Source of the DNA: a virus
Direction: 5' to 3' (one strand)
Length of the DNA: 60,971 nt
IMG/VR virus record: IMGVR_UViG_3300025941_001121
Span: 1 to 60,971 of that record
The translations under genes and the position numbers were made by a program. The notes beneath the pieces are model-generated. The model was given only the letters and a program-made list of their open reading frames with translations. It searched no databases and was not told the origin of the DNA. This document shows positions 5,178-59,970 of this stretch, in pieces (the stretch's first letter is position 1; each line of letters opens with the position of its first letter).

Positions 5178-5389
5178 CGCGCACCACCCGCTACGCCCCA
5201 CTCCTGGGCCTCGGCGACGGCGCACTCCATCTCCCGGGCAGCGAAGCGGCGGACGACCCGGCCCCGACTCTGCGCCTTTCGCACCAAACGCTTCGCCATC
5301 CGGAGCCGCCGATCGGCGGCGCGCCGATGGCCCTCGAACAGCAGGCGGTCGTTGACGGAAGCTGTGAGGTCGTGGTGCGTGAAGGCCAT
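5174..5389 (-). CDS. Basic helical 71-residue protein
   Basis: Arg-rich helical protein (RRAADRRLRMAKRLVRKAQS). Overlaps both neighbours (TGATG upstream, GTGA downstream). Could bind nucleic acid; no fold recognised. Confidence 0.6.
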   Translation of the reverse strand: MAFTHHDLTASVNDRLLFEGHRRAADRRLRMAKRLVRKAQSRGRVVRRFAAREMECAVAEAQEWGVAGGAR

Positions 5390-5736
5390 TAGGCGGCCCT
5401 CCCGTAGCGCTCGTCAGCGGTGACGTAGTTGCTCCCGCCGATCGCCTTGATCCGGTCACGCGGCGGCGCGGGCGCAGCGCCGTAGCGCGTGCGCGGGCGT
5501 CGCCGCCATGACCGAATCTGCCCCCAGACCCCGGCGAGAACGGTGAGGGCGAACAGCAGGAAGCCGATCGCTAGGACCCGATCCTCTGCCGGTCCGTAGA
5601 TCAGGGTCGCGGCAGCGGTGGTCAGGACGCTGGTCAGCAGCGAGATCGCGTAGATGGCGAGACCGATGAGCGCGAAGAAGATCGTTGCCCCGAGGAACCC
5701 GGGATCTTCCGCTTGCTGTTTGAGCCAGGCGATCAC
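5389..5736 (-). CDS. Two-helix membrane protein
   Basis: 115 residues with two hydrophobic segments, about 14-44 (FLGATIFFALIGLAIYAISL onward) and 52-75 (VLAIGFLLFALTVLAGVWG), then a basic C-terminal tail of about 40 residues. Likely an inner-membrane protein with the tail in the cytoplasm by the positive-inside rule. In the early operon this could be a superinfection or host-membrane modifier; that is inference only. Confidence 0.7.
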   Translation of the reverse strand: MIAWLKQQAEDPGFLGATIFFALIGLAIYAISLLTSVLTTAAATLIYGPAEDRVLAIGFLLFALTVLAGVWGQIRSWRRRPRTRYGAAPAPPRDRIKAIGGSNYVTADERYGRAA

Positions 5737-5996
5737 CGTGCCGCCACCGCCTTTTGCTCGACGTAGGCGTGGACGGTCTTGCCGGTTTCGTCGTCGGTGT
5801 CCTCGAAGTCCAGACCGAGAGCAACATCGCTGGCGGCCGATTCCGCCTCAAGCGGATGCCAACCCGTCTCCAATCTCAGCCGGTCAGCCAGCTCCTCCTC
5901 GGTGCCCAGCTCCCACCGCTCGTACGGAGCGACGCTGTACATCTCGCGCTCGTTCGAGACCTCTACGACGAACCTCGCTGACCCCTCGTCCTTCAT
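5733..5996 (-). CDS. Hypothetical acidic protein behind the repeated promoter
   Basis: 87 residues from ATG 5996 (MKDEGSARFVVEVSNEREM), chosen because GAGGAGG lies five bases upstream. A longer in-frame start (6041) would put the promoter inside the gene. Acidic C-terminal half (DFEDTDDETGKTVHAYVEQ). It is the first gene after the 5996-6056 promoter, so it heads its own transcript. Function unknown. Confidence 0.65.
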   Translation of the reverse strand: MKDEGSARFVVEVSNEREMYSVAPYERWELGTEEELADRLRLETGWHPLEAESAASDVALGLDFEDTDDETGKTVHAYVEQKAVAAR

Positions 5997-6056
5997 CCCA
6001 ACCTCCTCGCTGCTGTTGTCATTGCCTGAAAGATTATACACAGCTCGGGGATGAAA
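5996..6056 (-). promoter_or_regulatory. Leftward promoter and ribosome site, copy 1 of a 61-bp repeat
   Basis: Perfect 61-base copy of 22676-22736. On the minus strand it contains a consensus -10 box TATAAT (6038-6033), a leader of about 30 bases and GAGGAGG in front of ATG 5996. No good -35 is present, and the bases beyond the repeat differ between copies. The identity over untranslated DNA suggests a shared regulator, most simply the repressor encoded beside copy 2. It overlaps the end of the mIHF gene, so it can restart transcription within the operon. Confidence 0.75.
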
Positions 6057-6059
6057 AAG

Positions 6060-6389
6060 CTAGGCCGCGATCTGCTCTTCGCCGTGGCCGGTCACGTCCC
6101 GCAACTCGTCGGCCAGCATCGAGCGCTGGCGGGGGGTGAGGGTGCCCAGGCGCTTGGTCTCGCTCAGGGCCAAGGGCGCCAAGAACTTCCGCGCCCGGAT
6201 CGAACCCCACCGCCGCTGGCTGGTCAGCAGCTCGGCGATCGTCATCGTCTCGGTCTCCGGGGGCGCCTGCTCGACGATCTCAGCGGCGGCGACCCTGCCG
6301 GCGGCGACCTTCCGCTTGAGGGCCGCTCGGGCGAGCCTGACATCGTTGGCCCGGTCAAGGGCCTGCATGTGCTGGGGCTTGGTGGTCAC
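6060..6389 (-). CDS. Actinobacterial-type integration host factor (mIHF) homologue
   Basis: 109 residues from GTG 6389 (GTGA overlap with the upstream stop). The pattern RLARAALKRKVAAGRVAAAE, a spacer, MTIAELLTSQRRWGSIRARKF, then ETKRLGTLTPRQRSMLADEL follows mycobacterial/streptomycete IHF. That family has a long helix, then a helix-two-turn-helix DNA-binding region with conserved R(A/S)RK and T(R/K)RLGxLxxRQR. The bacterial protein bends DNA and is needed for mycobacteriophage L5 integration. A phage copy could assist integrative recombination, replication start or promoter control. It sits with replication genes rather than beside int. Similarity is from memory of the family. Confidence 0.8.
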   Translation of the reverse strand: MTTKPQHMQALDRANDVRLARAALKRKVAAGRVAAAEIVEQAPPETETMTIAELLTSQRRWGSIRARKFLAPLALSETKRLGTLTPRQRSMLADELRDVTGHGEEQIAA

Positions 6390-6607
6390 TGCTCTACCTC
6401 TCTTTCCTGCCGCTCCGTGCGGCGCTTGTAGTTGCGGGCCTGCTCGGCGTAGCGCTCTGCGGCCTCTGGGTTCACGTCTCGGTGCGCGGTTCCCACGGAG
6501 ACTCCGAGGGCCTCGGCGATCTCGCGGATCGTTGGGGTGGGGGTGCGCTTGCGCATCTGGCGGGCCTTGCGGCGGCGCTCTTCGACGGGGGAGAGGGTGG
6601 TGGTCAA
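6386..6607 (-). CDS. Small helix-turn-helix protein
   Basis: 73 residues. Residues 25-50 (TPTIREIAEALGVSVGTAHR) form a classic HTH with recognition helix VGTAHRDV, flanked by Arg/Glu-rich helices. Likely DNA-binding, acting as early regulator or replication accessory. Overlaps mIHF and the following gene. Confidence 0.75.
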   Translation of the reverse strand: MTTTLSPVEERRRKARQMRKRTPTPTIREIAEALGVSVGTAHRDVNPEAAERYAEQARNYKRRTERQEREVEQ

Positions 6608-7182
6608 GCGGCGCTCCTTTCGTCTGCCGGCTCCAGCGTGGGGGCGCGAGCATCGATCACTCGCTGCATCGCCTCGCCGAGCTTGCGGGGTCCGCGCTCA
6701 AGTCCACGGAGCCCGGCGCTCGGCAACCCGGCGTAGGCGTCATCGCGTCGTCGTGCCTCGCGGATGTTGTTGAAGATGTCGCGGAACTGAGCACGCACCG
6801 TCGGCTCGTCCTCCTTCATGTAGGAGAGCTGGGCGCCGCTGATGCGGCGTACCGCCTCGGCCGCCGCCGGACTCTGTTCTTCAAGCCAGCGTGCCGCCTC
6901 CTCGGGGTCGGCTTTGATCGCCGCCCGCTTAGCCAGCCGCCACGCCTCTCCGTGGTCGATCCCGTCTCGGCTCAGCTCGAGGATCCGATTCAGGATTTGG
7001 GCGCCGTTCGGCGGGAACTCGCGGCCGTCGCGATACAGCGTCTCCACGGCGACCTTGACCTGGTCCCCCGGGAATCGCTCCAAGTCGCGGAACCACTTCG
7101 CCGCGACCGGCTCGTCGACGGCAGCGTGCGGCCAGTTGACCCGCATCAGCCCGAGGCATTCGATCCACTCCGAGCGCTTCAT
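6604..7182 (-). CDS. Replication accessory protein, helicase loader/inhibitor-like
   Basis: 192 residues. The N-terminal 70 residues (WPHAAVDEPVAAKWFRDLER onward, then LYRDGREFPPNGAQILNRIL) follow the pattern of small phage proteins (G39P and DnaI N-terminal type) that bind replicative helicase. This fits the gene order initiator then partner at 7985-6604. No Walker A is present, so it is not a DnaC-type ATPase. The C-terminal half is charged and probably flexible. Family call is moderate. Confidence 0.55.
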   Translation of the reverse strand: MKRSEWIECLGLMRVNWPHAAVDEPVAAKWFRDLERFPGDQVKVAVETLYRDGREFPPNGAQILNRILELSRDGIDHGEAWRLAKRAAIKADPEEAARWLEEQSPAAAEAVRRISGAQLSYMKEDEPTVRAQFRDIFNNIREARRRDDAYAGLPSAGLRGLERGPRKLGEAMQRVIDARAPTLEPADERSAA

Positions 7183-7985
7183 GCCGCGCTCTCTTCCGCC
7201 ACGGCCTGCCGGTGGGCTTTTTCCAGTTTCGCCAGGTCCGCAGCCACCGAATCGCGAGCCTTCTTCGAACCGCCACTACCCCCGCCCTTGACGTTCCCGA
7301 GCCACTGGCGCCACTTCCAGGCGATGTCGTCCAGCTTGCGCTCGGCGCCCGGCCCTTCGGTGAAGTAGTGGGCGAACTTTGCCGCCTCGGCCTTCAGATC
7401 CAGGTGGGCATACTCGGCGCAGGCAGTCTCAACGGCTGGCACTTTCGGAGAGGGACGCTGCCTCGCGAACGCGACGGCGTCGAGCGCCGAGAGGATTTCC
7501 GGGTAGGAGCCGGTGCTCGCGGGCGCGCTGCTGCTGCTGTTGTTCCCATTCCTCTCCTTATCCCTTTCCTCTTCCTCTCCTAGGGGGGACTCGTCCCCGA
7601 CGCCTCCGGGACTCGTCCCCGACTCATCGGGGACGAGGTGGATGCCCGGCTCGGGTGGCGGAGGGAGGTTGGACGGCTTGGGCTTTTCGGGGTGCTGGTG
7701 CTCACACCAGTTCTCGATCCCGATGTAGCGCTCGCCGTCCACCTCGTAGCGGATGATCAGCCTCGCCCGCTCCAGTTCCTCCAGCCAGCCCTTCAAGACG
7801 GCCGGAGTCACATCTTCATCGGTTGGGAAGACCTGCCCCAGAATCCACTGCGGCAATTCCTGTAGACGGCCCTCGTCGTCTGCGATGTTCCAGAGAAGGA
7901 TGTTGAGCAACCGAGCATCCCGCGAGACCGCCCGCACCTTTCGGTTCTGCGGGTACTCGGGCTTGACTGATCGGATGCGAGCCAT
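7179..7985 (-). CDS. Phage replication initiator (replisome organiser type)
   Basis: 268 residues. Residues 1-100 (MARIRSVKPEYPQNRKVRAV, then LLNILLWNIADDEGRLQELP and VLKGWLEELERARLIIRYEV) have the winged-helix layout of phage replisome organisers that bind the origin. A Pro/Ser/Glu linker (about 105-160) leads to a C-terminal helical domain with AAKFAHYFTEGPGAERKLDD and a Trp-rich stretch, as in DnaD-like C-termini. It should recruit helicase with the downstream partner. The origin was not identified; it often lies inside such genes. Confidence 0.7.
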   Translation of the reverse strand: MARIRSVKPEYPQNRKVRAVSRDARLLNILLWNIADDEGRLQELPQWILGQVFPTDEDVTPAVLKGWLEELERARLIIRYEVDGERYIGIENWCEHQHPEKPKPSNLPPPPEPGIHLVPDESGTSPGGVGDESPLGEEEERDKERNGNNSSSSAPASTGSYPEILSALDAVAFARQRPSPKVPAVETACAEYAHLDLKAEAAKFAHYFTEGPGAERKLDDIAWKWRQWLGNVKGGGSGGSKKARDSVAADLAKLEKAHRQAVAEESAA

Positions 7986-16793: not shown

Positions 16794-16797
<4 letters not shown>

Positions 16798-17564
16798 AAG
16801 TGTTCCTTTCGTCCTGCTCTGTCAACTGAGTCGTGCATGGCTAGGCGGCTGCCTCCCGTTCGGGGTTGATGTGCGAGGTGCTGCTGAAGCTGCTCGCCGA
16901 TGAAGCGGGTGTAGGCCGGCGGGATCGCCTGGGTGAGCTCGGCGTTCGTCATCCATTCGATGCCCATCGCCTTGCAGCGCAGCTCGAACTCGCCGGCGTA
17001 GTTGCAGTTCCCGTGGACCCCCACTACCGAGGCGAGCTGGCCTCGATCGGCCATCTTTTTGTCCAAGGACTGGAAGCGGGGCTTCTGCCAGGAGTGTTCG
17101 CAGGGAGGTGCGGAGACCGGGAAGCTGCACTCGAAGAGCCGGTGGCGGCGTACGTCTAGGCCGAAGGAGGAACCGCAGAGGCGGATCGGGTTCTCGAGCG
17201 GGGAGCCAACCACGTTCTCGATCACGTAGGGCAGGCCGGTGGCCTTCAGGAGCTCCCGGGTCTCTGCGATCAGGTCGGGGTGGCTCCCTCGAGCTGCGTT
17301 CGGGGTGATGGTGGAGTAGCGGGGGCAGGGCGGCGAGGCGTGGATGGCGTCTGGCCGCAGGATCGTCAGGCCCGGCCCGCAGAACAAGGCCCCGTCCTTC
17401 GCCAAGGCCGCCGCCATCTCCAATGCATCGGCCTGGATGAGCTGGTCCCCGCAGTAGTTCGGCTGCGGGTTGATGTCGACGCCGACCACGTAAAAGCCCG
17501 CTTCCTGGTAGCCGCGGGTGCAGCCGCCAGCACCACAGAAGAGGTCGAGGAGTACCGGCTTCAA
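16794..17564 (-). CDS. DNA cytosine-5 methyltransferase
   Basis: 256 residues, short for the family. Motif I DLFCGAGGCTRGY (7-19) binds AdoMet, motif IV SPPCPRYS holds the catalytic Cys80, and motif VI is VIENVVG (E116). LCGSSFGLDVRRHRLFE matches motif VIII. The recognition region and final motifs are compact, as in phage enzymes. It should methylate C5 of cytosine in a short sequence. With the next gene and the MT-A70 enzyme it probably protects phage DNA from host restriction. No restriction partner is adjacent, so it is likely an orphan methylase. Confidence 0.92.
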
Positions 17565-19210
17565 GCTGCCGCCCCTTCCTGTTGGTCTTCGGGGTGGAGC
17601 TCTAGGAGCGATCCCTGACCAAGGTCCGCGAGCGCCTTCGACTCACGTTGAGAGCGGCCGACGATCCCCAGGACGTCCTCGACCTCCTCGCCTACGTGCT
17701 GGGACCAGAAGGCGATGCGGGCCTCGGCGATCGCGACGTACTCCGGTTTTCTCTCGATGCCGATGAAGTCGAAGCCCTCGAGGACCGCGGCGCAGCCGGT
17801 CGAGCCGCTGCCGAGGAACGGGTCGAGGACGATGCCACCGGGCGGGGTGACCATCCGGACCAGCCAGCGCATGAGGTTGATCGGCTTGACGGTCGGGTGG
17901 AAGTTGCGCTGCTCGCGCTCGGTGCCGTCGCTTTGGAAGGTGCCGGGCGACTTCTCTCCGCTCGACCAGTTGATCGCCTTCGCCGCGAATCCGTCGAGCC
18001 CCGCGTTCCTCTCAGCCCGTGAGGTCTTAGCGCAGTAAAAGAAGCGCGAGGCGCCGCCGGAGTCGCCATAGCCCTCGTGCCGTTTATCCGACCAGTGCCC
18101 AAAGAGCTCTCCTGCTGCGTGCCCCGGGTCGCGGCTCACTCGAAATGAGTGCGGCCGCTCCCCGCTCTGTGCATCCAGCTCCAGTGCTGCCCCCTCGCCG
18201 AGGACGACGTTGGCGGGCCAGCGGCCGGCGGGGACCTCATAGTCTGAGCGGACCATCTCGCCGTGAGTTGCCCCGTTACCGTTCGCCGTGGCGGGCGTCG
18301 TCCCAGGTGCATCCGGTACGCCCATGATCCGGCAGGCGTCGATGTTCAAACCCCCAGTGCCGTGCTCCAGGACGTTCTCCGCGACGGTGCCGACCAGGGG
18401 CTTGCGGGCGACGACGATCGGCTCGTGTGCGGGCTTCAGGGCGGTGCCCCAGCCCTGCCACTCGGCATCTTCGACCGGGTCGTTCAGCTCCTCGACATTG
18501 GCCTCCAGGTCGCGCCGACGGGCGTCGGCGCGGTCGGAGCCGTAGGGGCTGGCAATCCAGGCGCGGGCAACTCGCCGCGCCCATTTGCAGAGCATCTTGT
18601 GGATGTCGGCGCTCTTGGGAAAACCCGATCCGAAGTACCAGGCGAGGGTGCCGTCGGGCGTCAGCACGGTGCGGCCGTCGGGAGTGTCGATCCGATCGCG
18701 GATCTCGAAGCCGGCGTCCTCGATTCCCGACGCGAGCCGGTGGTGAGTTCGGCTGCCGCCGCAGGCGAGCAGATGGCCACCGGGCTTCAGGACCCGGAAG
18801 GCCTCTCGTGCCCATGCCTCGCACCAGGCCTGGTAGCGGCGGTTTGCGGTGAGGGAGAGGTCGTAGCGGCCGGCGTGCATGGCGCCGCCGCGAACCGTGT
18901 GCTGAGTGTTGTCGGCGCCGGTCGGGCCGCCGAACTTCACGCCCTCTCGCCGGCCGTGGCCGTTGAGAGGTACCCGATCCCGCGCGTGCCCCGCGCCACT
19001 CTCAGGCGACGGTTGCCGCCGACGGCGCTTGCCGGCCTGAAGCGGAACCTCCTCGTCAGGACCGATCGGCGCGAACTCCCCCGGCTGATCCCACTCGTGC
19101 CCCATGAAGCCGATCCCGTAGGGCGGGTCGGTGACTACGGCGTCGACCGATCCCTCGTCGAGCTTGCGCATCTCCGCGATGCAGTCGCCGGCGTGGATCT
19201 CCCAGCTCAA
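17561..19210 (-). CDS. N6-adenine/N4-cytosine DNA methyltransferase
   Basis: 549 residues. Motif IV DPPYGIGF lies at 28-35 and motif I DPFLGSGSTG at 463-472. Motif IV before motif I gives the beta-class order. HPTVKPINLMRWLVRMVTPP just before motif I matches motif X. DPPY fits N6-adenine methylation, but beta enzymes with DPPY can also be N4-C. The long central region (about 50-430) must hold the target-recognition domain. ATGA overlap with the C5 methylase indicates joint expression. Confidence 0.9.
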   Translation of the reverse strand: MSWEIHAGDCIAEMRKLDEGSVDAVVTDPPYGIGFMGHEWDQPGEFAPIGPDEEVPLQAGKRRRRQPSPESGAGHARDRVPLNGHGRREGVKFGGPTGADNTQHTVRGGAMHAGRYDLSLTANRRYQAWCEAWAREAFRVLKPGGHLLACGGSRTHHRLASGIEDAGFEIRDRIDTPDGRTVLTPDGTLAWYFGSGFPKSADIHKMLCKWARRVARAWIASPYGSDRADARRRDLEANVEELNDPVEDAEWQGWGTALKPAHEPIVVARKPLVGTVAENVLEHGTGGLNIDACRIMGVPDAPGTTPATANGNGATHGEMVRSDYEVPAGRWPANVVLGEGAALELDAQSGERPHSFRVSRDPGHAAGELFGHWSDKRHEGYGDSGGASRFFYCAKTSRAERNAGLDGFAAKAINWSSGEKSPGTFQSDGTEREQRNFHPTVKPINLMRWLVRMVTPPGGIVLDPFLGSGSTGCAAVLEGFDFIGIERKPEYVAIAEARIAFWSQHVGEEVEDVLGIVGRSQRESKALADLGQGSLLELHPEDQQEGAAA

Positions 19211-47772: not shown

Positions 47773-48321
47773 TTACTTGCCTTTGCCCGAGGCTTTGGCC
47801 TTGGGTTTCGCGGCTGCCCTGGATTTGGAGGACTTGCCTTTGCCCGAGGCTTTGGCCTTGGGTTTCGCCTCCTCGCTGATGACAACCAGCTCCCCCTGAT
47901 GGGTGACGATCGCCGAGACCGGCTCGGCCTCGGTTCCCTCCGGCAGGATCTCCTTCTCAGCCACCTCGGCACGCTGCTGATCGCTAAGCGCGAGCGGCTC
48001 GCCGGTGGTGGCGTCGAGCGGCCACCCTGCGGTGATGCCAGGGGTGACCTCGTCGGGGACCTCGACCGGGGCAGGCGGCTCGGTACCGCCACCCTCCAAC
48101 TCGCCGATCCGTTCATGGGCGGCGTCGAGCTTCTCCTTCAGCTCCTTGGCGTGCTTCGCCAAATCGTCGTCGGAGAGGTTCTCCAGGTCGCTGGTCTCTG
48201 CGATCAGCCCGTGGGCAATGAGGGACGCGTAACTGCGCCCCTCTTCACCCTCCGGTACCGGCTCGCCCGGCATGATCGTGTCCTCCCCCCAACGGAGGCG
48301 CTTGAGGGCTACGAAGCCCAT
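47773..48321 (-). CDS. Head-region protein with duplicated Lys-rich tail
   Basis: 182 residues. N-terminus VALKRLRWGEDTIMPGEPVP, a coiled coil (DDLAKHAKELKEKLDAAHER) and a strongly basic tail in which AKPKAKASGKGK appears twice. The basic tail could bind packaged DNA. It lies just after the capsid gene. No domain family is certain. Confidence 0.55.
   Translation of the reverse strand: MGFVALKRLRWGEDTIMPGEPVPEGEEGRSYASLIAHGLIAETSDLENLSDDDLAKHAKELKEKLDAAHERIGELEGGGTEPPAPVEVPDEVTPGITAGWPLDATTGEPLALSDQQRAEVAEKEILPEGTEAEPVSAIVTHQGELVVISEEAKPKAKASGKGKSSKSRAAAKPKAKASGKGK
47775..47868 (-). repeat. 37-bp direct repeat encoding the Lys-rich tail
   Basis: Two perfect 37-base copies at 47775-47811 and 47832-47868, period 57 bases, give the duplicated AKPKAKASGKGK. 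The lack of silent differences indicates a recent duplication. Confidence 0.85.
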
Positions 48322-49328
48322 CAGGACACCACGTTGTGGAAGAAGACGCCCAGCTCCGGAGCCACGACCTTCATGTCGTAGGCGCAGCGGACCTGGAACA
48401 CGTCGGAATGCGCTAGGTCCTCGCGGCCACGCTGGATGACGCCGCCGAACGCGTTAGTCGCGCCCGGGATCAGGCCCGTCCAGGCGAAGATGTAACCGCC
48501 CGAGGGCTGGTCAATCGCCGGGTTCGGCGCCGAGTAGACGAGCAGGGCGTCCTTGCGGCCGACGATGAAGTCGATCGCGTCAGCGGCGCCCTCCTGCGCG
48601 GTGTTCTTGATCGAACCGGGGATGACTACCCGTTCGACGCCGAACAGCTCGGCGAGGATCTCGGCGGTGACGATCCCCCGCTGGGTGTACTTGATCCGGT
48701 CCTTGACTTCCGGGTGGTTCTTGACCACGCGGAAGACGTCGCGTCCCAGCACCAGGGTGTTGGGGTCCATGCCCGTCGCCCCGCCGAGGCCGTCCCGCTC
48801 CTCGTCGAGGAATTCGACCGGTTCGGTGCCCGACTGGTCGAACTGGAGGAACTGGCCCGCACCGGGCGAGGAGCTTGCCCCGGTCAGGTCGGTGCCCCAG
48901 ACTCCCGTGCGGAAGTAGGCCGAGGCCCAGTCGGAGTCGCGGTGGACCATCATCTGTTCGGTCAGCAGCCGCATCCCGGCCCGGTCGGGGTCGAGCGGCT
49001 GGTCGGCGTTGGCCCGCAGGCGATCGTCGAGTTTGTACTCCAGGCCTTCCTCCTCGGCGAGGTAGGTGCCCTGTTCGACGTCGAAGTTGGCCTGGTTGGG
49101 CCGGCCGCCGAGAGGCCGCGGGGCTACCTCGTCGCGCCAGAAGTGGCCCTTCGGGTAGATCGAGTATTTGTCGGACTGTTTCGACACCGGCACGATCGGG
49201 AAGACCTTGTCGGCGACGAATTTCGAGGAGTCCTGGACGAACGCGACCGAGAGGTTCGTCAGGTACTGGTCGATGTGCAGATCGGAGGGCGTAGCGTCCT
49301 TCCGGATCTCAGTAACGGCTCCAGCCAT
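48321..49328 (-). CDS. Major capsid protein
   Basis: 335 residues. LHIDQYLTNLSVAFVQDSSK, FVADKVFPIVPVSKQSDKYS, DWASAYFRTGVWGTDLTGAS, and DPNTLVLGRDVFRVVKNHPE then ILAELFGVERVVIPG match the phage major capsid (E/HK97-fold, P22-like subgroup) of actinophages and related phages. Downstream of scaffold and cement genes as expected. Confidence 0.88.
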   Translation of the reverse strand: MAGAVTEIRKDATPSDLHIDQYLTNLSVAFVQDSSKFVADKVFPIVPVSKQSDKYSIYPKGHFWRDEVAPRPLGGRPNQANFDVEQGTYLAEEEGLEYKLDDRLRANADQPLDPDRAGMRLLTEQMMVHRDSDWASAYFRTGVWGTDLTGASSSPGAGQFLQFDQSGTEPVEFLDEERDGLGGATGMDPNTLVLGRDVFRVVKNHPEVKDRIKYTQRGIVTAEILAELFGVERVVIPGSIKNTAQEGAADAIDFIVGRKDALLVYSAPNPAIDQPSGGYIFAWTGLIPGATNAFGGVIQRGREDLAHSDVFQVRCAYDMKVVAPELGVFFHNVVS

Positions 49329-49791: not shown

Positions 49792-50610
49792 TTAGCCGCG
49801 GACCTCGGCGAGGTAGCGCTGCTGCAGGTCGGGGTCGTCCTCGAAGGCCTTCTCAAGCGCCTGCTCCTGCGAGAGCTTGGGGTCGGACTTGCGGATCTCC
49901 TCTGCCTTCTTGGCGGCCTCGTCGTAGGCGCCGCTGGGGGTGACGGAGCCGTTGGCGCCGGCCTCCTTGAGCAGCTCGCTCTTGGCGACCTGCTCGTCGG
50001 CGGCTTTGAGGACGCGTTCCAGCTCCTCGAAGTCGGCCTTGTCAAGCTTCTCGCTGGCCGCCTTCAGGATCGGGCCGAGCTTCGCGGGCTCGACCGTGAG
50101 GGCCTTGAAGTCCTCGGCCTTGGCGATGAACTCCTTGTTCAGGCGCTCGTCGCGCTCTTCCTTGGCGAGTTCGTGTCCTTCGGCGGCCTTCTCCTCCGCC
50201 TTCTGAGCCCGTTCTTCGGCCTTCTGAAGGGCGGCCTTGGCGGCGGGAGAGAGATCCGCCTTCTCCAGCTCTGCCTTTTCGGCGGCCTTGGTGAGGGCGT
50301 CCTCGACCTCCTTGACGACCGACTCCTTGACGTCGGCGCCCTTCAGCGCAGTGACGAGCTCGTCGGCGGACTTGGCGGTCAGGGTCGGCGCTTCGGCCTC
50401 CGGTAGCTCGAGGCCCGCGGCCTTGACGACCTCGGCGACTGCCTCGGGGGTGAGGTCGCTCTTGTGGGCGGCCAGCAGACGGGCAGCACCCGAGAGAGCG
50501 AGGGCGGCGGCGGCGGAGTGCTCGGCCTTCTCGACGAGCTTGCCGAGAGCGTCTTCGTTCTCGACGGGATCGCCGAGCTGGTCGAGCAGCTCCTTGGTGA
50601 GTTTCGACAT
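49792..50610 (-). CDS. Scaffold protein, internal-start short form
   Basis: In-frame ATG 50610 (MSKLTKELLDQLGDP) is preceded by CCAAGGAGGACACCCC, as good a ribosome site as that of the long form. It would give a 272-residue scaffold lacking the 45-residue leader, like the nested Nu3 of lambda. Inferred from sequence only. Confidence 0.6.
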   Translation of the reverse strand: MSKLTKELLDQLGDPVENEDALGKLVEKAEHSAAAALALSGAARLLAAHKSDLTPEAVAEVVKAAGLELPEAEAPTLTAKSADELVTALKGADVKESVVKEVEDALTKAAEKAELEKADLSPAAKAALQKAEERAQKAEEKAAEGHELAKEERDERLNKEFIAKAEDFKALTVEPAKLGPILKAASEKLDKADFEELERVLKAADEQVAKSELLKEAGANGSVTPSGAYDEAAKKAEEIRKSDPKLSQEQALEKAFEDDPDLQQRYLAEVRG

Positions 50611-50745
50611 GGGGTGTCCTCCTTGGGACTGATCGCGCTTCCAGATCAGGAAGCGATTGGGCTCGGACTGCTCGACGGGGTCGCGAACCGCAGCGCGGTC
50701 GACGAGCGACACCCACTCGACGTCGAGATCGGTGAGTTGGGGCAT
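49792..50745 (-). CDS. Scaffold protein, long form
   Basis: 317 residues from ATG 50745 with AAGGAGG upstream. The N-terminal 45 residues (LDVEWVSLVDRAAVRDPVEQ, then PNRFLIWKRD) match the N-terminus of phage head protease/scaffold proteins of XkdF type. The remainder is Ala/Glu/Lys helical scaffold (KAEERAQKAEEKAAEGHELA) and ends GANGSVTPSGAYDEAAK, then a helical C-terminus that should bind capsid. A second strong start lies inside. Confidence 0.75.
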   Translation of the reverse strand: MPQLTDLDVEWVSLVDRAAVRDPVEQSEPNRFLIWKRDQSQGGHPMSKLTKELLDQLGDPVENEDALGKLVEKAEHSAAAALALSGAARLLAAHKSDLTPEAVAEVVKAAGLELPEAEAPTLTAKSADELVTALKGADVKESVVKEVEDALTKAAEKAELEKADLSPAAKAALQKAEERAQKAEEKAAEGHELAKEERDERLNKEFIAKAEDFKALTVEPAKLGPILKAASEKLDKADFEELERVLKAADEQVAKSELLKEAGANGSVTPSGAYDEAAKKAEEIRKSDPKLSQEQALEKAFEDDPDLQQRYLAEVRG

Positions 50746-50789: not shown

Positions 50790-50989
50790 CTAGGGGAGGA
50801 GCGGCGGCTGGTTGACCGGCGGCTCGATCACTGCATCGGCGGGAACCTCGTTGGCCCACCACCATTCGCCAGGCCGAGGTCGACCGAGAGCTTGTAGTGC
50901 AGGTCATCGTGAAGGTAGGTGTCGCCGGTCTGCTGCGGATGCATGGCCGCGCAGAGGATCGTCCCGTCGGGTCGGATCCGAACGGCCAC
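50790..50989 (-). pseudogene. Small phage gene split by a -1 frame change
   Basis: GTG 50989 starts VRIRPDGTILCAAMHPQQTG then DTYLHDDLHYKLSVDLGL, recognised as an actinophage family N-terminus. This frame then degenerates and stops at 50828. The -1 frame from about 50870 continues GEWWWANEVPADAVIEPPVN and ends at 50790, which looks like the family's own C-terminus. A one-base indel, sequencing error or programmed shift at CTG-GCG would explain it. Confidence 0.6.
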
Positions 50990-50993
50990 AGCG

Positions 50994-52208
50994 CTACTCG
51001 TGCCGGGTGCCGGTGCCGCCGATCGAGAAGCCGGTCAGCCCGCCTTCGCAGACCTGATTCCAGACTTCGGGATCATCGACCCGGACTGCTATCACCCATG
51101 AGCCCTTGAGGACGGGGCGCCCGGCATATTCCATGTCCGCTGGGGCGATGAAGCTCTCGACGGGCACAACTGCGACTTCCTCCTCGGCGTGCTGCACGTC
51201 GTGCTTGCGCGATTCGGCGAGGTAGCGGTGCGCGGCGGCTTCGATGCACTCGGGCTCCTGCCAGTCGCCCTGGGAGTCGGGGACGTGGGGCTGCATGACG
51301 ACGCCGTAGACGATCCGCTTCGCGTCGTCCTTCCAGAGGGGGACCGTCAGCTCGCGGTGATCCTCGTCCTTCCACACCGCCTCGGGCGTCTCGGTCTTTC
51401 GGCGATGGGTGATCGAGTCGACGGCGCGCCGGAGGCGGCTGGCCTTGGCGACGCCTTCGAGCGGGAAGCTCTGGCGCTGTCCCGCCAGGCAGACCGTGAC
51501 CTCGCCGAACTTCAGCGGTACGTTCGGCACGTCCGGCTCGATGTGGTCGTAGGCGAGGGTGATGTGCGGGGTGAAGCCGTGCTCTGAACCCAGCTCGTAG
51601 CCCGCGCCATTCAGCGCTTCGACGACGCGGTGCCGGAACTCCGAGAGGCCCGGCACATCCGGGCTGGCGTAGGTAACCGGTTCCTCGCCTGCGGTGAAGT
51701 GGCCGACGCCGGAGATGTCGCCGCTCAGGGGCGTGGTCGAGAGGGCGACACCTTGGACGACCGCTGCTAGGCGCTCGGGGTCCTCGATCTCCGCCGCTTC
51801 GCCGAGGTAGGCGAGCGTGATGTGTAGGTCAGCCGCAGGTTCCCCGTCGGGGACCGCGAGCTGTTGGGCCACCTCGGGCGCGGGGTACAGCGCCACCATC
51901 GCCCCGGTACCCTTCTGGGCCTTCGTGAGGACCGAAGACGACGCCTTTTCGACAGGCCTGCCGTTGCGGCTGACCAGCACCCAGCCCTCCCCGGAAGGAT
52001 TGCCCTCGTCGCTCACCTCGACGTTCTGCACCTCGCTGATACCGGAGAGCATTCGGTGGATCTCAGGGCCGTTTTCGTCCGCGTCCCCGGCGACATAGTG
52101 GACGGAGCGAGAACGGGGGTTCCAATACAACTGCCCGTAATCGACCGAAGGCGCAGGAGGCTTGAAGTCGATGACGGCCTGAGGCACATTCGCCGCCGGA
52201 CTCGCCAT
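50994..52208 (-). CDS. 2H phosphoesterase fused to XkdF-like prohead protease
   Basis: 404 residues. Residues about 100-250 hold two HxT motifs, LHITLAYLG (H129, T131) and FTPHITLAY (H215, T217), the paired catalytic sites of the 2H phosphoesterase/2'-5' RNA ligase superfamily. Residues 275-404 match the phage serine protease XkdF (S78_2): IVYGVVMQPHVPDSQGDWQE, HDVQHAEEEV (H340), GSWVIAVRVDDPEVWNQV and GGLTGFSIGGTG (S395). The C-terminal part should mature the prohead; the N-terminal part may cut cyclic or 2',5'-linked nucleotides. Residues 1-95 are unassigned. It lies directly before the scaffold region, as proteases do. Confidence 0.82.
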   Translation of the reverse strand: MASPAANVPQAVIDFKPPAPSVDYGQLYWNPRSRSVHYVAGDADENGPEIHRMLSGISEVQNVEVSDEGNPSGEGWVLVSRNGRPVEKASSSVLTKAQKGTGAMVALYPAPEVAQQLAVPDGEPAADLHITLAYLGEAAEIEDPERLAAVVQGVALSTTPLSGDISGVGHFTAGEEPVTYASPDVPGLSEFRHRVVEALNGAGYELGSEHGFTPHITLAYDHIEPDVPNVPLKFGEVTVCLAGQRQSFPLEGVAKASRLRRAVDSITHRRKTETPEAVWKDEDHRELTVPLWKDDAKRIVYGVVMQPHVPDSQGDWQEPECIEAAAHRYLAESRKHDVQHAEEEVAVVPVESFIAPADMEYAGRPVLKGSWVIAVRVDDPEVWNQVCEGGLTGFSIGGTGTRHE

Positions 52209-52790: not shown

Positions 52791-54932
52791 TCAGCGGATG
52801 CGGGGGCCGAAGCCGGGGAGGAACTGAAGCGTGCCCTGGGGGTGCTCGTCAGCCGCGATCGATTCGGCTTCTTCGAAGCTGACGACTTCGCCGCAGCGGG
52901 CGACGCACTCGGGGTCTGAGGAGGCGAGGAGGCCGTCGAGCAGTTCGACGTTCATGACTTCCGGGTGGGCCTTGTAGGAGGCGAGGGCGATCTGCCGCTG
53001 GGCGTTCGCGGTCTCGGTGCGGGCGAGGAGCTGCGAGCGGTAACCCGCCCCGGCCTTGATGAACCGGCCGCCGGGGACGTACTGGCGGATCCGCTCGGCG
53101 GCTTCGGCCCATCCCTCCCCTGCTTCCCGGGCGTCGGCGAGGGCCTTGTAGATCGAGCCGCGGAGCTGCTTTTCGATGTCGAGCATCCCGACCCGTAAGC
53201 CGCCTTCGCGCAGGATGTCCGCTCGAGCCTGCTTCGTGAGGTTGAAGTCAACTGATCGTCCGAGGGCGCCGAGTTCCTCCTTGAACGCCTGGATCATCGA
53301 GTCAGCCACCGCCCCATAGTGGCCGTGGTAGGCGCGGGCGAGCTTGCGGGCGAACTGCGCGGCGCCCACCTCCTGCATGATCTGGTCGGCCACCGTCTGC
53401 TCTTCGGGGGAGACTGAGGCCGCCTTGCGAGCGAGCCGCGAGTAGGCGTTCGCCGCCTCCTCGCCGAAGTCCCGCAGCGCCGAGTTCATCGATAGCTGTA
53501 GGTGGCGCTCGTGGTGGCTTGCCACGTCGAGGTAGCGCTTGCCGAGCTCGGGCGTCTCCACCTCGGCGAGCCGCAGGCTCACGGGGTCTGCACCCTCGGA
53601 CTTCGCCGCCTCCACGGCCGCAGGGGCGGGGAGGCCGGCGCGCTGGTAGATCGCTGCGAGCAGGTCGTTGTCGGGGAAGACGACGGCGCCGGCGGCGGCC
53701 AGTCGCTCCAGGAGCTGGGCCAGAGCGTCGAGGTCGACCCGCCGCACCGTTCCCGGGCGGAGCTGGGGCGGGTCGTCGATGCTCATCCCGTTCAGCGCCA
53801 AGAGGCGCGGGATCGCGTAGCGATTGAAGACAGCGGCGACCGCTTCCATGACCGTGTCGACGAAGGAGCCAAAGATGTCGGCCTTGGCGTCGACCATCGC
53901 GTAGGAGCCGACCTTGTCCTGGCCCGTCAGCAGCATGTCGGCGAGGACGGAGGTCGCGATGTCCTGCCGGTAGCGCTTGATGATCTCGTTGGTGTCGAGC
54001 TGGCGGGAGCCGCCGGTGGTGAGCAGCTCCAGTTCCCAACCCGCAGGCTTGACGATCCCCTCATCCTCGTCGCGGCGGATCGTGGATACGACCTCTTCGG
54101 CCGCTTGGCGGATCTGCGAGTTCGCATCGGAGTAGAGGTCGAAGCTTTCCGGCGGCGTCATCACCGGGATCCCGGCTAGGTCGCGCTCGACCCCGATCGC
54201 CTCAATCTCTTCGATCGTCTTCTTGCGGAACCAGGCGACGTAGGCGTTGCGGAGGATGGAGCGCCCCTCGGGGTTCCCCTTGGCGGTGCGGGTGCGGAAG
54301 AGAAGCGCCTTCTGGATGGGGATCAGGCGCTGCTGTCCGTCCCAGCCGACCTGCCGCATCGCCTGCACGCCGCCGGTCTCGTCGAACTCCCAGTTCCAGA
54401 GGGTCTCCTGGGCGCGGATCGGGAGCTTGCGCCAGCCGACTTTCCCATCGCTGAACCGCGAGGAGGCGGGGGCCGCGGCCTTACGTTCGCCGTCGGTGAT
54501 CGGGGTGTCGGTCTGCGGCCCGTTGCGCTTCTTGAAGACTTCCTCGTGGAAGGACCAGCCGAAGACCAGCATCGAGAGGATTTCGCAGACCACGTCCTCC
54601 CAGGTCGAGGACATGTCGTTCATGCACTCCTCGACGAACTCCGCCGCGCCTGCTTCAGAGCCCTCCTCGACCTCCCAGGGCACACCGCGCGCCAGCATCT
54701 CGATCGCGAAGAGGAAGGCGCCGACCGTGGCGTCGTTGTCGGCCATCTCGCGGAAGACCCAGGCGGCCTTCTTCCCCGAGAGCTGGCGCAGCCACTCCTC
54801 GACGACGAAGCCGCCGTACTGCCGTAGGCCGGTGACGCCGACCTCGTCGAGCGTGGGGCGGCGCTGAGCCCGCTGCACCCGGCCGCCCGCCTTCTTCTGG
54901 ACCATGGGGGAGACCGCGGTGTCCTCGGACAT
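52791..54932 (-). CDS. Portal protein fused to a MuF-like domain
   Basis: 713 residues. The first ~430 (YGGFVVEEWLRQLSGKKAAW, VCEILSMLVFGWSFHEEVFK, IPIQKALLFRTRTAKGNPEG, RYRQDIATSVLADMLLTGQD) match DUF935/Mu gp29-type portals. The C-terminal ~170 contain RSQLLARTETANAQRQIALA, then CVARCGEVVSFEEAESI and DEHPQGTLQFLP, a MuF-like pattern with the usual HPNCRC replaced. It forms the dodecameric DNA gate and may carry an ejected internal domain. Confidence 0.85.
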   Translation of the reverse strand: MSEDTAVSPMVQKKAGGRVQRAQRRPTLDEVGVTGLRQYGGFVVEEWLRQLSGKKAAWVFREMADNDATVGAFLFAIEMLARGVPWEVEEGSEAGAAEFVEECMNDMSSTWEDVVCEILSMLVFGWSFHEEVFKKRNGPQTDTPITDGERKAAAPASSRFSDGKVGWRKLPIRAQETLWNWEFDETGGVQAMRQVGWDGQQRLIPIQKALLFRTRTAKGNPEGRSILRNAYVAWFRKKTIEEIEAIGVERDLAGIPVMTPPESFDLYSDANSQIRQAAEEVVSTIRRDEDEGIVKPAGWELELLTTGGSRQLDTNEIIKRYRQDIATSVLADMLLTGQDKVGSYAMVDAKADIFGSFVDTVMEAVAAVFNRYAIPRLLALNGMSIDDPPQLRPGTVRRVDLDALAQLLERLAAAGAVVFPDNDLLAAIYQRAGLPAPAAVEAAKSEGADPVSLRLAEVETPELGKRYLDVASHHERHLQLSMNSALRDFGEEAANAYSRLARKAASVSPEEQTVADQIMQEVGAAQFARKLARAYHGHYGAVADSMIQAFKEELGALGRSVDFNLTKQARADILREGGLRVGMLDIEKQLRGSIYKALADAREAGEGWAEAAERIRQYVPGGRFIKAGAGYRSQLLARTETANAQRQIALASYKAHPEVMNVELLDGLLASSDPECVARCGEVVSFEEAESIAADEHPQGTLQFLPGFGPRIR

Positions 54933-55784: not shown

Positions 55785-55802
55785 ATTCGGCGCGTGCTCT
55801 AG

Positions 55803-55890
55803 CGGAGCGACAGGGACTCGAACCCCGAAGGCGGCGGCTGCCGCCCTACGCGCTTAGCGGGCGCGCTCCTCGTCCTGCCGGACTCGCTCC
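55803..55890 (-). tRNA. tRNA-Ser(GCT)
   Basis: 88 bases. Acceptor GGAGCGA/TCGCTCC with discriminator G, a long variable arm (GGCGGC/GCCGCC) of class II tRNAs, T-arm CGGGG-TTCGAGT-CCCTG and anticodon stem CGCGC/GCGCG. The loop is CCGCTAA, anticodon GCT, with C instead of the usual U33, and base 8 is not U. It may be functional but atypical. No encoded CCA. Confidence 0.75.
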
Positions 55891-56290: not shown

Positions 56291-57883
56291 CTACCCCAGC
56301 TTGTGCCGCGACCGAGCCGTCTTGATGATCGGCGCTGCCGCCAGCGGGGCTTTCGAGAGCCAGTCGAGCACCTGGGAGAGCGAGTCGACCTGGTCGTCGT
56401 GGGCGCCGTTGGGGAAGACAGCATGCTCGTGGGTGAAGTCGTCGACCCGCGTCGGCTCGAACTCCAGCCGGTGCTTGGTTCCGTCCTCCTCGGTCCATTC
56501 GAACGGAGGGGGTGCGGGGATGTACTCGGCCTCGGGGATGTGGACGTTCCCGGCCTCGACCTGCGGCGTGACCGCCGCGGCGCGGGCCTCCTTGGACTCT
56601 TTCGGGTTGATCTCAACCATCCCGGGAATCGTCTTCTTGAAGGTGTTGAGGACCGCCTCGCCGTTGGCCTTCTTCTCGATCAGCTTCGCCTCGCAGGGCT
56701 GCCACTGCTCGACCGCGAGAACCGCTTTCAGGGTCTCGGTGAAGCTGAGGCGTGCGCGGACCTGGCCGACTAGATAGCGGTCAGCGCCGCGGATCGCCCA
56801 GACTTGCCCGACCACGTAGCTCGAGGACTCCTTCTGGGAGTCGGAGAACCGCATGTCCCAGGTGGCGACGTGGCGGGGCCAGGGCGGCAGGTCCTCGGGA
56901 CGGTAGAGCTTCCACCAGTGCTTCTTGAACATCCCGCCCTCGGCGGGAGCCGGGCGCTGCTGCAGTTGCCCGGCGTAGCCGTAGGAACCCTGTTCGCGCA
57001 GTAGCTCGTCGAGTTTCTCGCGGCCGAGCCTGACCGGCTCCAGCAGCTCGCCCTCTTCGGCACGGGGGTCCCCGGGCAGCTCGCGCCCTGAGGGCAGCAT
57101 CACCGACTCGGGGCAGACGAACGGGTGGGAGGGCTCGTATTCGGCGGGGAGGCACAGGTGGTGCCAGTCACCGCGCTCCAGCAGATAGCCGGTCAGGTCT
57201 TCCTCGTGGAGGCGCTGCTGGACGATCACCGCGGCGGCCTGGGCGTTGTTGAAGCGGCTCGTCATCGTGCCGCTCCACCACTCGTTGGCGTTGATCCGTT
57301 CCGTGTCCGAGCGCGCCTGGTCGGCACCGAGGGCGTCGTCCACGACGATGCGATCACCGCCCTGACCCGTTGCCATCGCTCCGACCGAGGTCGCGAGGCG
57401 ATAGCCGGTCGCGGTGTTTTCAAACCGCATCTTCTCGTTCTGGTCTTTCGCCAAGCTCCACGGATCGTCATGGAGCAACGAGAGGACGCCTTGGTAGCCG
57501 ATGCGCTCGAAGAGCGTTCCCTCTTCGGCGCCGCCCTTGGACTCGATCAGGAGGCGCGTCGCGCGCGAGTGCTCGCTGCTCAGCTTCGAGGAGTAGGACG
57601 CATAGAGCCAGCGCAGCGAGGGATGGTCGAGCCAGTCCCAGGCGGGGTAGAAGATCGAGGAGACCAGGCTCTTGCCGGTTCGCGGAGGGACGTTGATGAT
57701 GAGGCGGAGCAGCTCGCCCCGCGAGACGGCTTCGAGGTGCTCGGCGACGACATCCACATGCCACCCGGCTACGAATGGCGTGGCCGGCTCAAGGATCGGC
57801 CATGCCTGCCGGATGAACGTGCCGAGCGAGCGGCGGCAGCGCTCGGCTAGAAGTTCGTCACGGGAGGGGAGGTGCGTGAGCAT
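56291..57883 (-). CDS. Terminase large subunit
   Basis: 530 residues. ATPase: Walker A NVPPRTGKSLVSS (64-76), adenine-side motif WLYASYSSKLS, and Walker B GDRIVVDDALGA (about 166-177). Nuclease: TWDMRFSDSQ (about 341-350) and AHDDQVDSLSQ (494-504) supply the RuvC-like acidic residues. It cuts concatemers and drives DNA into proheads through the portal. Two small genes separate it from the small subunit, with a terminator and promoter-like box between. Confidence 0.95.
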   Translation of the reverse strand: MLTHLPSRDELLAERCRRSLGTFIRQAWPILEPATPFVAGWHVDVVAEHLEAVSRGELLRLIINVPPRTGKSLVSSIFYPAWDWLDHPSLRWLYASYSSKLSSEHSRATRLLIESKGGAEEGTLFERIGYQGVLSLLHDDPWSLAKDQNEKMRFENTATGYRLATSVGAMATGQGGDRIVVDDALGADQARSDTERINANEWWSGTMTSRFNNAQAAAVIVQQRLHEEDLTGYLLERGDWHHLCLPAEYEPSHPFVCPESVMLPSGRELPGDPRAEEGELLEPVRLGREKLDELLREQGSYGYAGQLQQRPAPAEGGMFKKHWWKLYRPEDLPPWPRHVATWDMRFSDSQKESSSYVVGQVWAIRGADRYLVGQVRARLSFTETLKAVLAVEQWQPCEAKLIEKKANGEAVLNTFKKTIPGMVEINPKESKEARAAAVTPQVEAGNVHIPEAEYIPAPPPFEWTEEDGTKHRLEFEPTRVDDFTHEHAVFPNGAHDDQVDSLSQVLDWLSKAPLAAAPIIKTARSRHKLG

Positions 57884-59212: not shown

Positions 59213-59396
59213 GCGGGTGCCCTCCTTTGTCGGGGCCTTCGGTTGCCCGGCTGGCGCCTTTCGGCCAAGGCCGGATCGGGGTTGTGTGAATCGAAGCGGC
59301 CACCGGCCTGCCTGCCCTGTCGTCAACTCGCCGTCGGCTCAGCCCCGTAGGGCTCAGGCGACGGCCCAGGGCTGGGCGAGGTCTCGGTGGTCCAGG

Positions 59397-59467
59397 CTGC
59401 GGGCCAGGGGATCGAACCTCGGTCTCTTGCTCCAGAGGCAAGCGTGCTGCAGATACACCAGCCCGCA
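59397..59467 (-). tRNA. tRNA-Gln(CTG)
   Basis: 71 bases. Acceptor TGCGGGC/GCCCGCA with discriminator G (U1-A72 as in other tRNA-Gln), anticodon stem CTTGC/GCAAG, loop CTCTGGA with anticodon CTG, and T-loop TTCGATC. The T-stem has one A-C mismatch. No encoded CCA. Reads CAG, a codon abundant in this genome. Confidence 0.82.
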
Positions 59468-59899: not shown

Positions 59900-59970
59900 T
59901 TGCCGTGGCGAGAGTCGAACTCGCTTCTGCGGCTTATGAGGCCGCCGACTTACCCTTTGTCCTCACGGCG
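59900..59970 (-). tRNA. tRNA-Met(CAT), initiator-like first pair
   Basis: 71 bases. Anticodon stem GCGGC/GCCGC, loop CTCATAA (anticodon CAT), T-arm GCGAG-TTCGACT-CTCGC, D-stem GAC/GTC. The acceptor has a C1-A72 mismatch followed by six pairs, the mark of initiator tRNA, but the anticodon stem lacks the three G-C pairs of tRNA-fMet. A lysidine-type Ile tRNA cannot be excluded. No encoded CCA. Confidence 0.75.

Follow-up and report, generated by a model that had tools for sequence, protein, structure and literature searches.

Why would a phage fuse its prohead maturation protease to a 2H phosphoesterase? The question is raised by a 404-aa minus-strand open reading frame (50994..52208) of the window, a linear IMG/VR contig of 60,971 bases that may be incomplete. 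The ORF lies at exactly the coordinates given in the initial annotation. It starts with ATG, is preceded by a plausible Shine-Dalgarno sequence (GAGGG), and its GC content by codon position (0.72/0.45/0.85) has the same pattern as that of the adjacent genes. As had been claimed, the chain combines a complete 2H phosphoesterase (PF13563, residues 124-234, 4.9e-14, 53.1 bits against a cut-off of 27) with an XkdF-type protease (PF14550, residues 293-403, 7.8e-29, 100.7 bits against a cut-off of 24), and PHROG 14859 aligns over both domains (residues 99-404, 9.7e-28); such matches are far stronger than chance would give. From the N-terminus, and all on the minus strand, the protein consists of a small beta/alpha region (residues 24-85, 51954..52139, pLDDT ~70), for which no family match was found, the 2H domain (residues 98-250, 51459..51917), a linker (residues 255-291, 51336..51446) and the protease domain (residues 293-403, 51000..51332).

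The two HxT motifs are H129-I130-T131 (51816..51824, minus strand) and H215-I216-T217 (51558..51566, minus strand), 86 residues apart as originally reported; judged from the sequence, H129, T131, H215 and T217 are the expected catalytic tetrad. The domain also matched the LigT_PEase profile (2.9e-6) and, among PDB sequences, the Thermus 2'-5' RNA ligase 1iuh (1e-4). An AlphaFold2 model of the fusion protein, built with a 50-sequence alignment, showed 2H topology with pLDDT >90 over residues 98-250. In a Foldseek search of the PDB, the best matches of this region were drCPDase (5h7e, 9e-9) and E. coli LigT (5ldm, 2.5e-8), behind which came rotavirus VP3 and further 2H enzymes, among them the phosphodiesterase of Burkholderia phage BCSR5 (PDB 9q2y), on which a literature search found no paper; Usb1 was also listed. 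The HxT motifs are therefore surrounded by a confidently predicted 2H fold with LigT/CPDase neighbours, and the two Hx(T/S) motifs and the bilobed fold place the domain in the 2H phosphoesterase superfamily.

The protease half is likewise complete. The PF14550 match covers profile positions 8-125 of 126, a full-length domain, and H340 and S395 (in GxSIGG) are invariant among the aligned 2H-XkdF fusions, which makes them candidate catalytic residues of a predicted XkdF-type (Peptidase_S78_2) prohead protease. In the AlphaFold2 model, the protease (mostly pLDDT 80-90) forms a domain separate from 2H, and most of the linker has pLDDT <50; this mostly low-confidence, disordered segment is a possible site at which 2H could separate from the protease. 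A fold match to a structural protein of psiM2 was discarded as evidence for a virion-borne 2H: the protein (ORF12) is annotated as an XkdF protease, so that the 141 matched columns most likely come from the protease half. Profile searches of the fusion gave 2H and protease domains only, with no RNA ligase nucleotidyltransferase domain, and we dropped the database label "RNA ligase" carried by genes of this type.

The fusion gene sits in an ordinary head cluster with every gene on the minus strand. It is preceded by the genes for the terminase large subunit (56291..57883, phrog_38 2e-90) and for a portal-MuF fusion protein that has no 2H insert (52791..54932, Portal_Mu 2.9e-33, phrog_113 4.7e-81), and it is followed by those for a probable scaffold, for a small head protein and for the major capsid protein (48321..49328, phrog_1005 1.2e-84). 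The product of 49792..50745 is probably a scaffold or assembly protein, as its position directly downstream of the fusion suggests; its PHROG matches are weak and to families of unknown function, and its likely start is the ATG at 50745, preceded by AAGGAGG. Between these two genes, the minus strand at 50828-50991 encodes about 50 aa (VAVRIRPDGTILCAAMHPQQTGDTYLHDDLHYKLSVDLG...); this short ORF is probably a phage gene that length cut-offs excluded. The record contains three tRNA genes, Ser-GCT (55802-55890), Gln-CTG (59395-59467) and Met-CAT (59900-59970), the first of which falls within the head cluster. Elsewhere in the window, two neighbouring genes at 16794-19210 look by eye like DNA methyltransferases, and a gene for a tyrosine integrase (1-1338) points to a temperate lifestyle.

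The initial annotation had viewed the fusion as an isolated case; it proved to be part of a large family. A tblastn search of phage records showed that Microbacterium phage ValentiniPuff and a number of Arthrobacter phages, among them Laroye, Salgado and Edmundo, also encode 2H followed by XkdF. Like the fusion studied here, gp18 of Edmundo, Laroye and Salgado and gp7 of ValentiniPuff are single chains (~370-390 aa); overall identity to our protein is 34% and 27%, respectively. Their genes adjoin portal and MuF genes and, in Edmundo, lie upstream of the major capsid gene. They differ from our fusion in having another N-terminal region and a 2H domain on a separate branch. In these phages, the annotation of the gene varies between capsid maturation protease, RNA ligase and aldolase class I. 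Our results indicate that the latter two labels are wrong or misleading; near-identical Arthrobacter phages (GenBank MF140427, KU160654 and others) give one and the same gene conflicting labels. The 2H domain also occurs within a MuF protein of Streptomyces phage Abt2graduatex2, at the end of a DUF935 portal in Deinococcus and in an S78 protease of a Streptomyces plasmid-prophage. Stand-alone 2H genes were found next to a protease gene or near a portal gene in Gordonia phage YungMoney (gp19) and Mycobacterium phage Tyke (gp97). The Bacillus XkdF proteins that we compared are without 2H.

A single-sequence query of viral contigs gave no matches, whereas an alignment-based scan gave 247 relatives, of which we retained the best 80. 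At least 65 of these 80 have 2H and a recognised head protein in a single chain: an S78 protease (23), a portal (20, some with MuF), XkdF (10), a Mu-type or DUF2213-type protease (7), or a protease-capsid polyprotein or capsid protein (5); in the remaining 15 loci, no head domain was recognised in the 2H chain. Bacterial prophages (Streptomyces, Nonomuraea, Chloroflexi and others) likewise fuse 2H to S78, XkdF, portal and MuF. More distant cellular 2H proteins from the same scan are mostly stand-alone (~180-250 aa). On a tree of 99 2H sequences, parsimony counted at least 11 carrier changes, a number that is not firm, as it comes from one quick tree with poorly supported deep branches. A single clade of XkdF-fused sequences was rejected (AU test, p=0.0027). 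The 2H domain is thus a member of a phage family whose carrier changes from one head protein to another. It would be an effector attached to a head protein, as in the polyvalent MuF/portal type: its carrier here is the prohead protease, and those of its relatives are portal, MuF and protease-capsid proteins. The head location proposed in the initial annotation has in this respect gained comparative evidence, since proteases, portals and protease-capsid proteins have repeatedly acquired the domain.

The closest relatives of our 2H among the best 80 of the 247 show a carrier change directly. One (L011) is again in an XkdF protein. In two others (L010 and L012), 2H domains 62% and 56% identical to ours lie as an insert at the boundary of portal body and MuF region. 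The portal-MuF protein at 52791..54932 is 51% identical to the L010 portal over 431 aa and runs straight into MuF with no 2H. From these 2H-bearing portals and their 2H-less homologue, we conclude from the alignments that 2H changed carrier among close relatives yet remained in the head.

Does the head need the enzyme or only the fold? Both catalytic His residues are retained in 92 of 92 family sequences; full HxT/S pairs are present in 88, and the other four differ at one Thr only. Conservation of motif 1 is partly built in, as this motif was in the search pattern, but motif 2 was not in the viral search pattern, and H215 is nevertheless found in all 92. Among the sampled 2H-XkdF fusions, both His were kept in 11 of 11, so that loss of these residues while the protease stays was not seen. 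Taken together, the sequences point to a catalytically intact, active enzyme, and because the His residues are kept throughout and the domain has been grafted repeatedly onto head proteins, an active enzyme appears to be needed in the head, and both its location and its activity seem to be under selection. A binding function of 2H in the prohead, for nucleic acid or for protein and with catalysis irrelevant, would fit the domain's occurrence mostly in assembly proteins and its insertion between domains without disruption. Such a role is disfavoured by the catalytic conservation through many carrier changes and by the lack of 2H in the portal at 52791..54932 and the Bacillus XkdF proteins, and we regard it as very improbable.

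The family assignment of 2H bears on what it would cut. An association with Acb1, raised in the initial annotation, was not supported: the Acb1 profile PF23474 scored 17.8 bits against a cut-off of 27, which rules out membership on score, and the fold is closer to LigT/CPDase. Our domain shares with Acb1 the 2H fold, the HxT/HxT tetrad and phage origin, but Acb1 is a small free protein (PMC9117128), whereas the 2H here is fused. The LigT/ThpR family, RNA 2',3'-cyclic phosphodiesterases that are among the closest solved folds, was also not reached by profile (TIGR02258, 35.1 bits against a cut-off of 65.7). LigT is a cellular, stand-alone enzyme in which Arg130 coordinates phosphate (PMC5283653), whereas in the phage fusion this position, read from the alignment with Thermus 1iuh, is occupied by Tyr220 (51549..51551, minus strand). 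Tyr is found there in 92% of the phage 2H family. A phage-versus-cellular contrast at this position drawn from the surveyed loci was dropped, since the genome search pattern itself required Tyr or Trp; the comparison is limited to Thermus 1iuh and published LigT. With Tyr in place of the phosphate-binding Arg, substrate handling may differ from that of LigT. The rotavirus VP3 C-terminal 2',5'-phosphodiesterase, also a fold match, is a 2H domain within a virion protein; virus and carrier are unrelated, and activity is known for VP3 but predicted here.

With LigT and CPDase as the closest folds and three tRNA genes in the record, the enzyme could instead be one that heals RNA ends, opening, once injected or made late, 2',3'-cyclic phosphates on tRNA or other RNA cut by host anticodon nucleases. 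A 2022 survey (PMC9503650) proposes end healing for some phage 2H proteins. The Tyr at the LigT Arg position speaks against it, and the head fusion would be left unexplained. Searches of the record for RtcB, a PF09414 RNA ligase, an AAA_33 kinase and KptA gave none of them; an RNA repair pathway of the phage's own is accordingly not evident, although in a possibly incomplete record such absence proves little. Iyer et al. 2017 (PMC5512222) never observed polyvalent-type 2H domains beside RNA ligases. We consider end healing distinctly unlikely.

An injected 2H might also be a Usb1-like RNase acting on host RNA. In Iyer et al. (PMC5512222), 2H domains fused to MuF or portal are proposed either to degrade defence nucleotides or to act as RNases, the latter by comparison of 2H-MuF/portal architectures with those of PBECR RNases. 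Usb1 is among the Foldseek matches, but the nearest relatives in sequence and fold are CPDase and LigT rather than Usb1, and this option has little probability in our estimate.

The reading we prefer is that an active 2H is carried by the prohead protease as head cargo, injected with the DNA and directed against host defence; we give it an even chance of being right. 2H would be a metal-independent phosphodiesterase that late in infection goes into the prohead along with the protease. The flexible linker would be cleaved or tolerated, and proteolysis at this disordered segment would perhaps free 2H. The enzyme would remain in the head and reach the next cell together with the DNA, where it would most likely cut a nucleotide- or RNA-type defence product ahead of phage gene expression, either an oligonucleotide signal that is cyclic or 2',5'-linked or an RNA-type product such as a 2',3'-cyclic phosphate end. 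A nucleotide signal is the likeliest target because 2H enzymes cut such bonds (Acb1, PMC9117128; VP3), because the RNA ligase, RtcB, kinase and KptA genes were not found, and because early delivery helps against fast alarms. Packaging, injection, release from the protease and the anti-defence role are what we infer. By the time particles are mature, prohead proteases have often been degraded or lost, and a 2H cargo on the protease might for this reason not survive.

The main rival to capsid cargo is late action on the spot, in which 2H cuts an alarm signal at the head assembly site of the producing cell and the fusion ensures co-expression and co-localisation, not injection. Some defences sense capsids, as is reported for a Thoeris-type TIR system (PMC11312562), and the stand-alone 2H genes in the head clusters of YungMoney and Tyke indicate that fusion is not always required. 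Co-expression, however, does not require repeated covalent fusion to varied carriers, including portals and protease-capsid polyproteins, and Acb1 works as a small free protein (PMC9117128). We judge late local action unlikely, if less so than the other alternatives.

Extending the cargo reading to the whole family, we propose, with somewhat less than even confidence, that 2H is a transferable capsid cargo regrafted among head proteins, which would enter with the DNA and disarm nucleotide-signalling immunity, maturation freeing the enzyme where it is fused to a protease. Acb1 presumably must be made after infection. An injected 2H would, in contrast, counter nucleotide-signalling defences at time zero, in parallel to the virion-borne 2',5'-phosphodiesterase of rotavirus. 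Carrier swapping also provides natural head-targeting fusions, a possible guide for phage protein delivery, and the cultured Arthrobacter and Microbacterium phages make the hypothesis directly testable.

Parts of this picture have precedents. The 2022 survey (PMC9503650) proposes that 2H-MuF and 2H-portal proteins are packaged and injected against nucleotide-signalling defences, and mentions Nudix domains fused to a capsid-processing serine peptidase; actinobacteriophage surveys describe VIP2 toxin with MuF and fusions of protease with capsid (PMC7302621). The 2H-MuF/portal fusions of PMC5512222 and PMC9503650 share superfamily and head attachment with ours, but the carrier here is the prohead protease. 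Within the searched text passages of these two papers, no 2H-prohead protease or 2H-capsid polyprotein fusion is named; proteins with the 2H-XkdF layout are already grouped by PHROG. The enzyme and the packaged-effector idea are thus known, the protease carrier is under-described, and comparative evidence of repeated carrier switching is added here.

Three observations concern the domains around 2H in the surveyed loci. A recurring domain of ~57 aa (YWxxGxGxxxIxWGxPGxFxRC..., apparently phrog_6439) adjoins 2H in S78, MuF and other fusions (L004, L008 [ORF 5362-7560, residues 410-467], L024, L053, L075, L098 and others) and is also present in the separate protease beside the stand-alone 2H of YungMoney; as it is missing from the 60,971-nt window, a common head-targeting signal is not supported here. 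In three loci (L055, L082 and L099), protease, scaffold and major capsid protein are parts of one polyprotein (930-1050 aa), and 2H is at its N-terminus. In five others (L032, L080, L084, L031 and L076), long proteins combine 2H with Zeta toxin, ADP-ribosyltransferase, histidine phosphatase or acetyltransferase domains, and these are multi-effector proteins of the polyvalent kind.
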